38,945 nt of DNA, from the NCBI GenBank assembly GCA_903944085.1, contig CAJAQO010000274.1, positions 1 to 38,945 of the forward strand, read 5' to 3'. Under the pieces are notes generated by a model. That model was not told where the DNA came from and did no database searches. It saw nothing but the letters and a program-made list of their open reading frames with translations. Shown here one piece after another: positions 1,309-31,245 of the stretch. The position numbers and the translations under genes are program-made. Source of the stretch: an uncultured Verrucomicrobia subdivision 3 bacterium. GTDB taxonomy: Bacteria; Verrucomicrobiota; Verrucomicrobiia; Limisphaerales; UBA11358. Positions within the stretch are counted from its first letter, which is position 1, and each line of letters opens with the position of its first letter.

Positions 1309-2820
1309 ATGCGCCTTGCGGCGGGCTGGACAGGGGCGGCCGAAATTTCCTATATTGAGCCAGTGACAGAGCTTCACAAGCCACCGCAGCCGGATGACGA
1401 GCCTTCCGTCAAGTCGGTTGACTGGTCGGATTTCCGCGACCACATCGCCACCGCCGACCGCGAAGGCCGCCGTCAGTGGATGTATCCGCGCAAAGTGAGC
1501 GGACAGTTTTACCGCTGGCGCACCTGGTTTAGCTGGCTGCTGCTGGTCATCATGTTTGCCGGGCCGTTCATCACCATCCACGGCAATCCGCTGCTGCTGA
1601 TGAACATTGTCGAGCGCAAGTTCGTGGTGCTTGGCCAGATTTTTTGGCCGCAGGACATGATCATCTTTGCCGTCGCCACGCTGGTGTTTTTTACCGGCGT
1701 GATTATTTTCACCGCCGCCTTCGGCCGGCTCTGGTGCGGGTGGGCCTGCCCGCAGACGGTGATGATGGAAATGGTCTTCCGCAAAATCGAATACTTCATC
1801 GAAGGCGACGCGCCTTCGCAGCGCGAACTGAACCGCGCGCCTTGGAACGCGCAAAAAATCGCGAAGAAAATTTCCAAGCACGCCATTTTTTTTGCGCTTT
1901 CCTTCCTCGTGGGCAATGTGCTGTTGAGCTACCTCATCGGCTGGCAGCAGCTTTCCCAAATCATCACCGATCCGCCGGCGCGTCACTTCGTCGGCCTCTC
2001 GTTCATGGTCGCCTTTTCACTGTTGTTCTACGGCATCTTCGCGCGCTTCCGCGAACAGGCTTGCACGTTCATCTGTCCCTATGGCCGTTTTCAATCCGTG
2101 CTGCTCGATGAAAATTCCATCGTCGTGGCCTATGACCACAAGCGCGGGGAAAAACGGGCGCCGCTCAAGCGCGCCCAGAAATTCGGCGAGCGCCGTTTCG
2201 CGGGGCTGGGTGATTGCGTGGCGTGCAACCAGTGCGTTTCGGTCTGTCCCACCGGCATTGACATCCGTAACGGCACGCAGTTGGAGTGCGTCCACTGCAC
2301 CGCTTGCATGGACGCCTGCGACACCGTGATGACCAAGATCGGTTCGCCGCGCGGCCTCATCCGCTATGCTTCGCTCAACGGCATCGAGCGCCGCGAACCG
2401 CTGCGCTTCACGCCGCGCCTGGCCGGCTACTGCGTCATCCTGTTCGTTTTGTCGGTGGTGCTGGGGCTGATGCTGTTCCTGCGTTCGGATGTCGAGGCCA
2501 CGGTTTTGCGCGCGCCCGGTTCGCTGTTTCAGCAGATGCCCGACGGCCATTACAGCAATCTTTACACGGTGCGCGTGGTCAACAAAACCTCGCGTGAAAT
2601 GCCGGTGGAACTGCGCCTGGAAAATCCCGCCGGCAGCTTGAGCGTGATGGGGCAGGGGAGCATCGTCGTCGCCGCGCAAAAGCTTTCGGAAAGTTCCGTG
2701 CTCATCGAACTTGATCCGGCGGCGATGAAATCCGGCACCACGGCGCTGGTGCTCGGCGTTTATTCCGGCGGCAAAAAATTGCAGACCTTGAAAACGGCGT
2801 TTATCGGCCCGCGCAATTAA
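1309..2820 (+). CDS. ccoG: Cytochrome c oxidase accessory protein CcoG (FixG/RdxA)
   Basis: Polytopic membrane ferredoxin of the CcoG family, which supports assembly of cbb3-type cytochrome oxidase, probably by reducing copper on its way to the enzyme. Visible features: membrane helices around residues 72-90 and 112-137, the CGWACPQ motif (143-149), two further helices (190-212, 228-247), CTFICPYGRFQ (252-262), and a bacterial ferredoxin domain with cysteines 303, 306, 309, 313 and 327, 330, 333, 337, enough for two 4Fe-4S clusters. A last helix (about 372-392) is followed by an Ig-like FixG C-terminal domain. The ATG at 1309 is used; an in-frame GTG at 1363 is an equally good start because the first 18 residues look unconserved. 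ccoH follows after 2 bases. No ccoN/O/P genes are in the window. Confidence 0.95.
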   Translation: MRLAAGWTGAAEISYIEPVTELHKPPQPDDEPSVKSVDWSDFRDHIATADREGRRQWMYPRKVSGQFYRWRTWFSWLLLVIMFAGPFITIHGNPLLLMNIVERKFVVLGQIFWPQDMIIFAVATLVFFTGVIIFTAAFGRLWCGWACPQTVMMEMVFRKIEYFIEGDAPSQRELNRAPWNAQKIAKKISKHAIFFALSFLVGNVLLSYLIGWQQLSQIITDPPARHFVGLSFMVAFSLLFYGIFARFREQACTFICPYGRFQSVLLDENSIVVAYDHKRGEKRAPLKRAQKFGERRFAGLGDCVACNQCVSVCPTGIDIRNGTQLECVHCTACMDACDTVMTKIGSPRGLIRYASLNGIERREPLRFTPRLAGYCVILFVLSVVLGLMLFLRSDVEATVLRAPGSLFQQMPDGHYSNLYTVRVVNKTSREMPVELRLENPAGSLSVMGQGSIVVAAQKLSESSVLIELDPAAMKSGTTALVLGVYSGGKKLQTLKTAFIGPRN

Positions 2821-2822
2821 TT

Positions 2823-3281
2823 ATGAATTCCACCCGCAACCTTTGGCCGTTCGGCATCATCGCCGCGTTTGTGCTGTTCTTTGCCGGCATGGCCACGGTG
2901 GTGGTCATTGCCGCCACGCATCGCGAACATTTGGTGAATGACAATTACTACGAGCAGGAATTGAAATTTCAAAATCAGATTGACGGCGGCAGCCGCGCGA
3001 AAAAATCCGGTGCGAGCATCGTTTATGATTCCGCCAGCGATTCGGTGGTCATCACTTTACCGGCCGCCCAGCTCGCGCAGAAATTTTCCGGCACGATCGA
3101 ACTTTACCGCCCCTCCGAGCCGAAGCTGGATCGCGAGTTTCTGCTCGAACCGAAGGCTGACGGCACGCATCGCTTGAATGTTTCCAAACTGGCCACCGGA
3201 CTGTGGCTGGTGCGGGTCAAATGGGTGGCCGGCGGGGAAGACTATTTCCTCGAACAAAAAATCACCATCGCCGCCAAATAA
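2823..3281 (+). CDS. ccoH: FixH/CcoH family protein
   Basis: A 152-residue single-pass membrane protein of the FixH family, needed for assembly or stability of cbb3 oxidase and associated with the oxidase complex. It has one N-terminal transmembrane helix (about residues 9-29), followed by the family hallmark around NDNYYEQELKFQNQ with its paired tyrosines, and then a periplasmic beta-rich domain. The start is fixed by its position two bases after the ccoG stop. Its own stop is followed immediately by the ATG of the next gene, so the three genes form one operon. Confidence 0.9.
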   Translation: MNSTRNLWPFGIIAAFVLFFAGMATVVVIAATHREHLVNDNYYEQELKFQNQIDGGSRAKKSGASIVYDSASDSVVITLPAAQLAQKFSGTIELYRPSEPKLDREFLLEPKADGTHRLNVSKLATGLWLVRVKWVAGGEDYFLEQKITIAAK

Positions 3282-21544: not shown

Positions 21545-21877
21545 ATGACCAAACCTGCCTGCCCGATGTGCGAAATGACCGAAGTTCTGGAATTCCCCGA
21601 CAAATGGGAATGCGTTACCTGCGGTCACGAATGGTTGCGCGAAGTTGCGCCTGAAATCGCTGCCGGCCCGCGTGTCGTCAAGGATGCTCACGGCAATGTG
21701 CTGGCCGACGGTGATTGCGTCATCTTGATCAAGGATTTGAAATTAGGCGGTTCACAGGTGCTCAAGGGCGGCTCAAAATCCAAGCCCATCCGCCTCGGTG
21801 ATGGCGACCACGAAATCTCCTGCAAAGTGGACGGCATCGCCGTGGGCCTGAAAGCCTGCTTTGTGAAGAAGGTTTGA
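21545..21877 (+). CDS. PhnA/YjdM-like zinc-ribbon protein
   Basis: A 110-residue protein of the PhnA (alkylphosphonate utilisation-associated, YjdM) family. The N-terminal zinc ribbon is readable as CPMCEMTEVLEF ... WECVTCGHEW (Cys6, Cys9, then Cys23 and Cys26). The C-terminal SH3-like domain is seen in VKDAHGNVLADGDCVILIKDLKL and GGSKSKPIRLGDGDHEISCKVDGI. Despite the name, the family is not required for phosphonate breakdown and its role is unclear. It is the full usual length and soluble. It is followed by the 21-bp tandem array and not by another phosphonate gene. Confidence 0.92.
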   Translation: MTKPACPMCEMTEVLEFPDKWECVTCGHEWLREVAPEIAAGPRVVKDAHGNVLADGDCVILIKDLKLGGSQVLKGGSKSKPIRLGDGDHEISCKVDGIAVGLKACFVKKV

Positions 21878-21944
21878 TCCGGCGGCGAAGACGTGAGACC
21901 GGCTGTGGCCGACCAGCGACCGCAGTTCGTTGGAATCCAGCTTT

Positions 21945-22196
21945 GCCTGCAAACAAAGCAGTTTGGCCTGCCGACACAGCAACCTTGGCTGCCGGCAATC
22001 TTGCTTTGGCTGCCGACAAGAAAGTGATGCCTGCCGACGACAATGTTTTGAGGCCAGACACACCAATTCCGTCTGCCGACAGGGGCATTGTGACGCCAGA
22101 CAATGCTGTTCCGTTGGCAGACAAGACTTTTTAGATGGCAGACACAATGCCTTTGCTTCCAGACAAAATTGCTTTGTCTGGAAGCAACGCGGCCAA
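21945..22196. repeat. 21-bp tandem array, 12 units, no indels
   Basis: Twelve consecutive 21-base units share a core g-c-c-t-g-c-c-g-a-c-a, often varied to ggcagaca or gccagaca. The conserved C of the core falls at 21954, 21975, 21996, 22017, 22038, 22059, 22080, 22101, 22122, 22143, 22164 and 22185, that is exactly every 21 bases. The other half of each unit is variable but T/A-rich. In translation this gives heptapeptide series, for example PADxxxL on the plus strand and LSAGxTA on the minus strand. Confidence 0.85.
22153..22187. terminator. 15-bp perfect hairpin closing the 21-bp array
   Basis: ttgcttccagacaaa (22153-22167) pairs perfectly with tttgtctggaagcaa (22173-22187) over a 5-base loop, attgc. 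It forms from the last two array units, the final one being a reverse complement of its neighbour. It may act as a transcript end for the PhnA-like gene, although no T-run follows; the type is assigned for want of a better class. Confidence 0.45.
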
Positions 22197-22362
22197 AATT
22201 GGCAAAATAATGGCGAAAACTTGTTTTTCAGACTTTTCACCCTGCCAAAGCCGCGCACCGGGATCACGGTCGCTCAGTGCGCTGCAATGCCCGTGCCGCC
22301 CGCACCCTCAAATAACCGGCGTTTTACATTGCTATGTGGTCGCCCTGCACTGAAGCTTCAGC

Positions 22363-22551
22363 ATGAGTAATAGCCTCCAACAGCACGGATTCCGGGAAAT
22401 CAACAAGCAACTCCGCTTTCGGATGATTGCCAACGGACTGGACTCCATCAAAGTTCTGGTCACCCGCCGGTCCGGAAAATTCCATTTCAACTTCACCGGC
22501 TCGCCCGAACAAGTTGTGAAGGCGGAAGCGATTCTGGCGGCTTGGGGCTGA
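22363..22551 (+). CDS. Hypothetical small protein, 62 residues
   Basis: A compact, plausible protein I cannot assign: MSNSLQQHGFREINKQLRF ... VLVTRRSGKFHFNFTGSPEQVVKAEAILAAWG. The alternation of a basic strand (KVLVTRRSGKFHFNFTG) with a closing helix (PEQVVKAEAILAAW) suggests a small alpha/beta fold like a nucleic-acid or ligand-binding KH- or ACT-type mini-domain, but this is only an impression. It is preceded by a perfect 12-bp palindrome (22350-22361) one base before the ATG. No partner gene is adjacent. Confidence 0.5.
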   Translation: MSNSLQQHGFREINKQLRFRMIANGLDSIKVLVTRRSGKFHFNFTGSPEQVVKAEAILAAWG

Positions 22552-22664
22552 CCTTGGCTCGTCCTCGCCCTGGAAATAAGCCGTGCGAGGCAGTTCATCC
22601 GGCCGGGCGGACGCTAATTTTCATGGATTGAATTCGTGCTGATGCGTGCAAATTGTGTCCGCGT

Positions 22665-29778: not shown

Positions 29779-31245
29779 TCACGGGCTGGTTCGATGAGCG
29801 GTTGGCATTTCCCAGCCGCCGCCCAGCGCGCGGTAAAGTTGCACGACGGCGAGCAGTTGGTTGAGTTGAAACTGCACCAGTGAATTTTCCGCCGGGAAAA
29901 GCAATTGCTGCTCCTGCAAAACTTCGTAGTAATCTGCGTTGCCCAGGCGATAGCGCTCCATCGCAATTTTCACGGCTGCCTGATAAGCGGTCACCGCATG
30001 ACTTTCAAGCACGCGGGCGGCGGCTGATTTTTCACGCGAAATCAGCGAATCAGAAATTTCAAGAAACGCATTCAGCACGGCGGCCTGGTATTGCAGGGCA
30101 AATTGTTCGCGCGCGGCGCGGGCTTGGGCATATTGCGCGCGAAGCTGGCCGCCGTGGAAAATCGGGCCGGTCAAACCGGCGGCAATGCCCCAGGCAATCG
30201 CGCCGCCGGAAGTGAACGCCGCCAGTTCGGGACTGACGCCGCCGAACAATGCCGTGAGGTTGAGCTGCGGGAAAAAATCGGCTTTCGCCGCGCCGACTTG
30301 CGCGTTGGCGGAACGCAATTGCTGCTCGGCTTCGCGAATGTCGGGACGCCGTTCCAGCAGCGCGGATGGCAGGCCGGCGGGGATTTCCGGCGGCGTTTCG
30401 TTGTCGAGTGAAAGACTGCCGCGCACGATGGCTCCGGGGTTTTGGCCGAGCAAAACGCTCAACTGATTTTCCTGCAAGGCGATTTGCTGTTCGAGTCCGG
30501 GAATCGTCGCGGCGGCGGAATCCATCAGCGCTTCGGCAGACGACGTTTCCAATTTTGACGCGACGCCGCCTTGCAATCGCTGGTTGAAAATCTTCAGGCT
30601 CCGGCCGAAGGAATTGGTGCTTTGACGCGCAATCTCAAGCTGATTGTCCAGCGCCAGCAATTGAAAATAATCCTGCGCGATTTGGGCGATGAGCGAAATC
30701 GTCACGTCGCGCCGGGCTTCTTCGCTCGCCAAAAATTGCGCGCGGGCGGATTCGTTCAGCCGGCGGATGCGGCCCCACAAATCAATTTCCCACGAGGCGT
30801 TTGCGTCGGCGGCAAACACGCTGCCGCTCGTTCCAGTCGGCGACGGTCCATTGTTGGCGATATTTTTCCCTCCGCCCGCGGTGACGGCATAGTTAAGCTG
30901 CGGGAAAAATCCCGCGCGCGCCTGCGCGGCGAGGGCGCGCGCCTGTTCGACGCGCGTGACGGCGATCCGCAAATCGTAATTGTTCGTCAGCGCGATGCAA
31001 ATCAGGCTTTCCAGCGCGTCGTCATGAAACACCTGCCACCAAGGAAGACTGGCAAACGAGTTTGTGGAAATGTCGGTTTCGCCGCGAAACGCTGCCGGCG
31101 CATTGACAGGCGGACGTTTGTAATTGGGTCCGACTGCACAACCAATGAAAGTCAAAAGTCCAATGCCCAAAGTCCAATGTCCAAAGGTCCGCGCATTGAG
31201 CAGACTTTGGACTTTGGACATGAGGCTTTGGACTAATTTGTTCAT
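29779..31245 (-). CDS. RND efflux outer-membrane lipoprotein (OprM/NodT family)
   Basis: A 488-residue TolC-like outer-membrane channel with two OEP repeats. The lipobox TFIGC follows the signal region, then the family start AVGPNYKRPPV. Further hallmarks: LPWWQVFHDDALESLI, ANASWEIDLWGRIRRLNESARA and, in the second half, LPSALLERRPDIREAEQQLRSANAQVGAAKADFFPQL. It completes the three-part pump. Its ATG overlaps the RND transporter stop by 4 bases (31242-31245). The first 30 residues are largely encoded by a word repeat (31151-31233), so its signal sequence appears to have been built from repeat DNA. Confidence 0.93.
   Translation of the reverse strand: MNKLVQSLMSKVQSLLNARTFGHWTLGIGLLTFIGCAVGPNYKRPPVNAPAAFRGETDISTNSFASLPWWQVFHDDALESLICIALTNNYDLRIAVTRVEQARALAAQARAGFFPQLNYAVTAGGGKNIANNGPSPTGTSGSVFAADANASWEIDLWGRIRRLNESARAQFLASEEARRDVTISLIAQIAQDYFQLLALDNQLEIARQSTNSFGRSLKIFNQRLQGGVASKLETSSAEALMDSAAATIPGLEQQIALQENQLSVLLGQNPGAIVRGSLSLDNETPPEIPAGLPSALLERRPDIREAEQQLRSANAQVGAAKADFFPQLNLTALFGGVSPELAAFTSGGAIAWGIAAGLTGPIFHGGQLRAQYAQARAAREQFALQYQAAVLNAFLEISDSLISREKSAAARVLESHAVTAYQAAVKIAMERYRLGNADYYEVLQEQQLLFPAENSLVQFQLNQLLAVVQLYRALGGGWEMPTAHRTSP
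31151..31233. repeat. gtccaaag/ctttggac word repeat in the OMF signal region
   Basis: Tandem and inverted copies of the word agtccaaa/tttggact: 31151-31190 (gtcaaaagtccaatgcccaaagtcc...) and 31203-31233 (gactttggactttggac...). The two blocks are partly complementary. The repeat encodes VQSLMSKVQSLL and RTFGHWTLGIGLLTF at the start of the outer-membrane protein. Confidence 0.75.

Follow-up and report, generated by a model that had tools for sequence, protein, structure and literature searches.

In the genome of an uncultured Verrucomicrobia subdivision 3 bacterium (5.8 Mb, here G000), we found an array of twelve 21-bp units that is very probably an orphan member of a class of gene-linked, phased arrays. 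It lies in the 38,945-nt stretch of DNA that was analysed as a whole (contig C274, hereafter the window). Its arrays lie just in front of genes that belong to a single expanded family, a pairing that suggests an unrecognised system of array plus gene. The class spans at least two phyla (Verrucomicrobiota and Spirochaetota) and is also found in Azoarcus-like MAGs. The window array is called an orphan because the window holds no family gene, while a close relative of the array in genome G002 has one. The explanation that we favour overall, an orphan gene-linked array combined with a cis-acting DNA mechanism, is given a probability of about 0.4.

Window array and its closest relatives

The array occupies positions 21942 to 22193 of the window and has the consensus TTGYYKNCMGACA plus 8 variable bases on the plus strand; the strand was assigned after the G002 relative, in which the array is directed at its gene. 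All 12 units are in phase from 21943 onward (0 register shifts) at a mean pairwise divergence of 0.46, with 81 differences from the consensus, and the first-pass annotation was thus correct in reporting twelve strongly diverged 21-bp units with no indel. Over 210 bp the array matches itself at lag 21 with an identity of 0.576; 2000 shuffles of the intergenic sequence, scored at periods 15 to 44, reached no more than 0.395, and lags 21 and 42 lead all others across the whole window. Tandem Repeats Finder did not call the array since its units are too diverged. Taken alone, the array has no significant dyad symmetry (p = 0.11 against column permutation) and no clear repeat alternation. Elsewhere in the window, a heptamer tandem repeat (AAAGTCC, 5.6 copies) is found at 31148 to 31186, at the junction of an outer-membrane efflux gene and an AcrB-type gene.

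Arrays related to this one were found in only two other genomes among the 49 of the genus, G005 and G002 (the latter a same-genus Limisphaerales MAG from a bog), and an order-wide search of 320 genomes still confined them to these three. The gene neighbourhoods differ among all three arrays. Across their 32 units, G3 and C12 never vary and G10/A11 is present in 31; the conserved core C that had been noticed from the window sequence is confirmed. The G005 array contains one 20-bp unit. In G002, inverted units extend the array past its hairpin with the 21-bp phase kept, and a 206-aa family gene (fn3-like) lies directly downstream. No remnant of a family gene was found in the window or beside the G005 array. 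Downstream of the G005 array (locus L011, approximately 2710 to 2900, minus strand) there is a remnant of a PhnA 3' end, comprising CFVKKV-stop and the following bases (score 41, shuffle maximum 31); the phnA gene 5' of the window array is intact. Another 21-bp array was noted in genome G036 (L091, approximately 103 to 350), roughly 1.1 kb downstream of phnA, and no family gene is reported on that contig.

The window array ends in a perfect hairpin with a 15-bp stem and a 5-nt loop (22153 to 22187), formed by the last forward unit, TTGCTTCCAGACA, and its inverted copy. The hairpin is common to the window, G005 and G002 arrays; the one stem pair that varies is A-T in G005, against C-G in the other two genomes. 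A terminator scan did not list it and no T-run follows it, so by that scan it is not an intrinsic terminator. The hairpin was also considered as a general end mark of arrays and rejected, being confined to the three TTGTCTGC-type arrays. Next to it comes a 64-bp tail (22188 to 22251), and the G005 element has a homologous one; local alignment of the G000 and G005 elements spans 21942 to 22251 with a score of 180 (shuffle maximum 37).

The array is contained in approximately 430 bp of lineage-specific extra DNA (21878 to 22309) that is absent in two congeners, G047 and G036. In both, homology to the window from 22310 onward begins about 15 bp after the PhnA gene (an empty site), indicating either a lineage-specific insertion or loss in both congeners. 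Upstream of the insertion and outside the element is the yjdM/phnA gene (21545 to 21877, plus strand). A 61-aa ORF downstream (22366 to 22554, plus strand) is also present at the empty sites and hence does not belong to the element. In genome G028 (L088), phnA and the 61-aa ORF are separated by about 970 bp of DNA that is unrelated and seems to bear genes. The gap between these two genes seems to be an insertion hotspot. Neither the hairpin nor the insertion figures in the first-pass annotation.

Arrays upstream of one gene family

By contig pattern scan, similar 21-bp arrays with the palindromic core TTGTCTNNAGACAA were found in termite-gut Treponema and in Azoarcus-like MAGs. A genome-wide pattern scan gave 34 loci, many of which are chance or coding repeats. 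Two of the Treponema arrays adjoin members of one gene family. Of 73 family genes that had 400 bp or more of upstream sequence, 59 were preceded by an array, 57 of these at period 21; over all 61 arrays the period is 21 in 59 and 22 in two. In a fixed test (600 bp, tandem period with a score of at least 0.55), Limisphaerales loci had an upstream array in 17 of 27 cases and Treponema/Azoarcus loci in 22 of 26, with 21 as the period in almost every case; the downstream controls gave one array in 27 and none in 24 (1/51 together). PhnA flanks, taken as a further control in the 600-bp test, carried arrays in 0 of 58 cases. In the window's genome an array is present at nearly all full-length family copies, and the copy at L197, from another family of the class, has one too.

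A typical array has approximately 6 to 24 units (often 9 to 14) and lies about 30 to 630 bp upstream of the family gene. The unit sequences are wholly different between most loci and the pitch is kept. The array farthest from period 21 is a truncated one that precedes a Treponema family gene (L130, 1 to 115) and has period 23. Genes around the cassettes are mostly unrelated from locus to locus, which indicates that array plus gene is the unit. A perfect CRP/FNR-like palindrome (TGTGAN6TCACA) is found between array and gene at L153, L181, L186, L192 and L193, and with one mismatch at L179. It is located 74 to 117 bp before the start of the family gene and occurs in one clade only; in that clade its position places the array upstream of a probable promoter.

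The family proteins are 205 to 220 aa long. Their C-terminal half is fn3-like by PDB profile search (E = 2e-13), and the N-terminal half is unmatched and predicted, at low confidence, to be helical; single-sequence structure prediction was poor (pLDDT 46). The window's own genome has 13 family matches (17 by profile search) and other congeners have up to 16 per genome. Five Treponema genomes have 8, 21, 13, 33 and 1 matches and an Azoarcus-like genome has three. The Limisphaerales and Treponema families align over 189 columns by hhalign (probability 95%, E = 3e-8), and it was concluded that they are homologous. Family genes with arrays are also present in termite-gut betaproteobacterial MAGs (Azoarcus/Zoogloeaceae; L064, L044, L120 and L126). 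These copies reflect either horizontal transfer or mis-binned Treponema contigs. Searches of the family proteins against NCBIfam and PADLOC gave nothing convincing, no defence model (cas-type included) was matched, and PHROG matches are through the fn3 part only.

Constraint within arrays

In 51 arrays with 547 units, 2714 substitutions from the consensus were counted versus 2 register shifts inside the detected arrays, the detector being one that may cut an array at a register shift. An edge scan picked up shifts of 1 to 3 bp, in part by chance, on as many as 25 sides of arrays. A class-wide rule of no indels at all was rejected on account of these edge shifts, and we estimate that substitutions exceed shifts by a factor of about a hundred or more. 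The first-pass proposal that the period is under selection is supported by these counts in the wider class.

Compared with column permutation, 23 of 61 arrays show an excess of dyad symmetry at p ≤ 0.05, where 3 are expected (median p = 0.115). No half-unit A/T phasing was found across the arrays. A-tract curvature was tested and is not supported. Apart from the usual AA/TT excess, no common dinucleotide or constant box motif is present in all arrays. Covariation of the arms within arrays appeared significant and disappeared when compared with a null that included the same dyad selection step. The idea that the array motif is the address of its own protein was rejected after Mantel tests (r = 0.45 in Limisphaerales and r = 0.12 in Treponema), the Limisphaerales signal coming from protein pairs above 70% identity. 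The proteins change more slowly than the array motifs.

Proposed mechanism

As a tentative first choice we propose that the array acts as double-stranded DNA. It would present dyad-like sites at intervals of two helical turns, all on the same face of the helix, to which an oligomerising dimeric protein could bind. Once bound, the protein would assemble into a regular nucleoprotein filament in front of the promoter of the family gene, and this filament may control the linked gene. The window copy would have lost its gene or been dispersed without one.

In favour of the explanation as a whole are the placement of the arrays before the family genes, the rarity of register shifts, the class-wide excess of dyad symmetry and, in one clade, the palindrome between array and gene. 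Several observations count against it. Dyad symmetry is not universal among the arrays, and it is not significant in the window array, which also lacks the gene; nor is there covariation within arrays once the choice of dyad is controlled. The unit sequences differ between loci, so that no single sequence-specific protein could read all of them, and to our knowledge there is no known reader protein. Period 22 in two arrays and period 23 in the truncated one do not fit strict helical phasing over 10 or more units. Finally, motif similarity tracks protein identity only above about 70%.

A strictly phased, sequence-diverse array tied to one paralogous family suggests an unrecognised genetic system. 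Because each genome offers many natural variants, it can be tested directly what reads a constant 21-bp pitch without a constant sequence.

Alternative explanations

The array could instead serve in the recognition or replication of a dispersed element (array with or without the gene) that is mobilised in trans, an explanation that we regard as possible but on balance improbable. Cassettes occur at unrelated places in 13 to 33 copies per genome, orphan arrays exist, and the window element is an insertion relative to two empty sites. The homologous G000 and G005 elements are found at different loci, each linked with phnA sequence. A mobile cassette would account for the insertion and the copy number, but a recognised enzyme is lacking: no transposase or integrase family was found beside the sampled cassettes (ten neighbours scanned), a shared end sequence was not found, and phage, plasmid and viral-contig collections gave no matches. 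In addition, units that are specific to each locus do not fit a single recombinase.

It is unlikely that the array is transcribed and read as RNA in the manner of TIGR arrays, with short repeats and variable spacers of 6 to 9 nt set to a fixed ruler length. The array RNA would be cut into small RNAs for the fn3-like protein or another partner, in either case a non-TIGR protein. As in TIGR, the arrays have repeats that are constant within a locus and different between loci, they stand beside one gene, and their short repeats alternate with spacers of 8 to 12 nt. The array at L194 has an identical 12-nt repeat and fully variable 9-nt spacers, and A/B unit alternation with a 42-bp super-period is seen in 10 of 47 arrays. 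The window array is predicted to fold strongly as RNA (z = -5.4 on one strand and -4.8 on the other), but any tandem palindromic sequence should give such a value. Many arrays (e.g., L183 and L190) show little variety in their spacers, no constant box motif was found, and the strand bias of G-U pairs is not significant (78 versus 56 A-C). No Nop domain was found in the family proteins or in the window's genome; TIGR-Tas proper is not supported, as that genome has no PF01798 match.

Quite unlikely, in our estimate, is the broader proposal that the arrays and the fn3-like protein constitute an unrecognised array-guided system over several phyla. If it were array-guided, the fixed unit length would be read out (by a processed RNA or a nucleoprotein ruler) and the sequence would be free to diversify, giving dozens of differently addressed copies per genome.

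An ordinary decaying minisatellite that has kept its phase by chance is very improbable. The unit number and sequence do vary, and the motif turnover outpaces that of the proteins. Placement only upstream, beside one gene family, is hard to reconcile with a neutral minisatellite; the near-constant period despite the divergence and the conserved core positions in three species also argue against it.

The first-pass annotation had offered a heptapeptide repeat (PADxxxL or LSAGxTA, depending on strand) or a spacing of two helical turns as the basis of the period; the second stands as a possibility, although half-unit A/T phasing is absent and two arrays have period 22, and the first is largely refuted. 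The unit does equal seven codons and the G002 array is open in the LPADxxx frame, but the window array has an in-frame TAG, G005 has its 20-bp unit, the Asp codon is always GAC and never GAT, 22-bp arrays exist, in 9 of 47 arrays none of the six frames is open, and codon periodicity of conservation is seen in only 1 of 41. Coding heptads were tested for an open frame and for codon-wise conservation, and neither held.

Comparison with known systems

The first-pass annotation knew of no named feature that would explain the array, and this holds for Rfam, Pfam, NCBIfam, PADLOC and the full-text literature. The Rfam 15 search gave no match at the gathering score. The array class was not found described in the full-text literature, whose coverage leaves out most subscription papers and all preprints; the class is apparently undescribed, and an earlier report may exist given that coverage.

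Iterons and plasmid centromeres consist of tandem sites of about two helical turns with one sequence and one Rep or ParR reader. The present arrays resemble them in having tandem units of about two helical turns and differ in having another sequence at every locus. REP/BIME elements (GTAG and CGTC families) are short palindromic extragenic repeats that have been reported from Verrucomicrobia too; they form sequence families dispersed in the genome and are linked to RAYT transposases (PMC3733652). Unlike these, each array described here has its own sequence, is strictly tandem and lies upstream of one gene family. CRISPR repeats are 25 to 36 nt long with spacers of similar size (PMC12045711). 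The likeness to CRISPR is a regular array beside a gene; the whole unit here is only 21 bp and the linked protein has no cas-type defence match.

TIGR arrays are also constant in their repeats within a locus and different between loci, typically with 5 to 15 units next to one protein gene (PMC12045711). They have two alternating repeats of 8 to 12 nt with 9-nt spacers and a period of about 36; the partner is a Nop-domain (Tas) protein and the processed RNAs are 36 nt long (PMC12045711). The arrays described here share with them short repeats and spacers at a fixed length, a locus-specific sequence and one adjacent gene. They differ from them in the low spacer diversity of many arrays, in the period (21 or 42 here versus about 36 there) and in the partner, which is an fn3-like protein here and a Nop-domain protein there.
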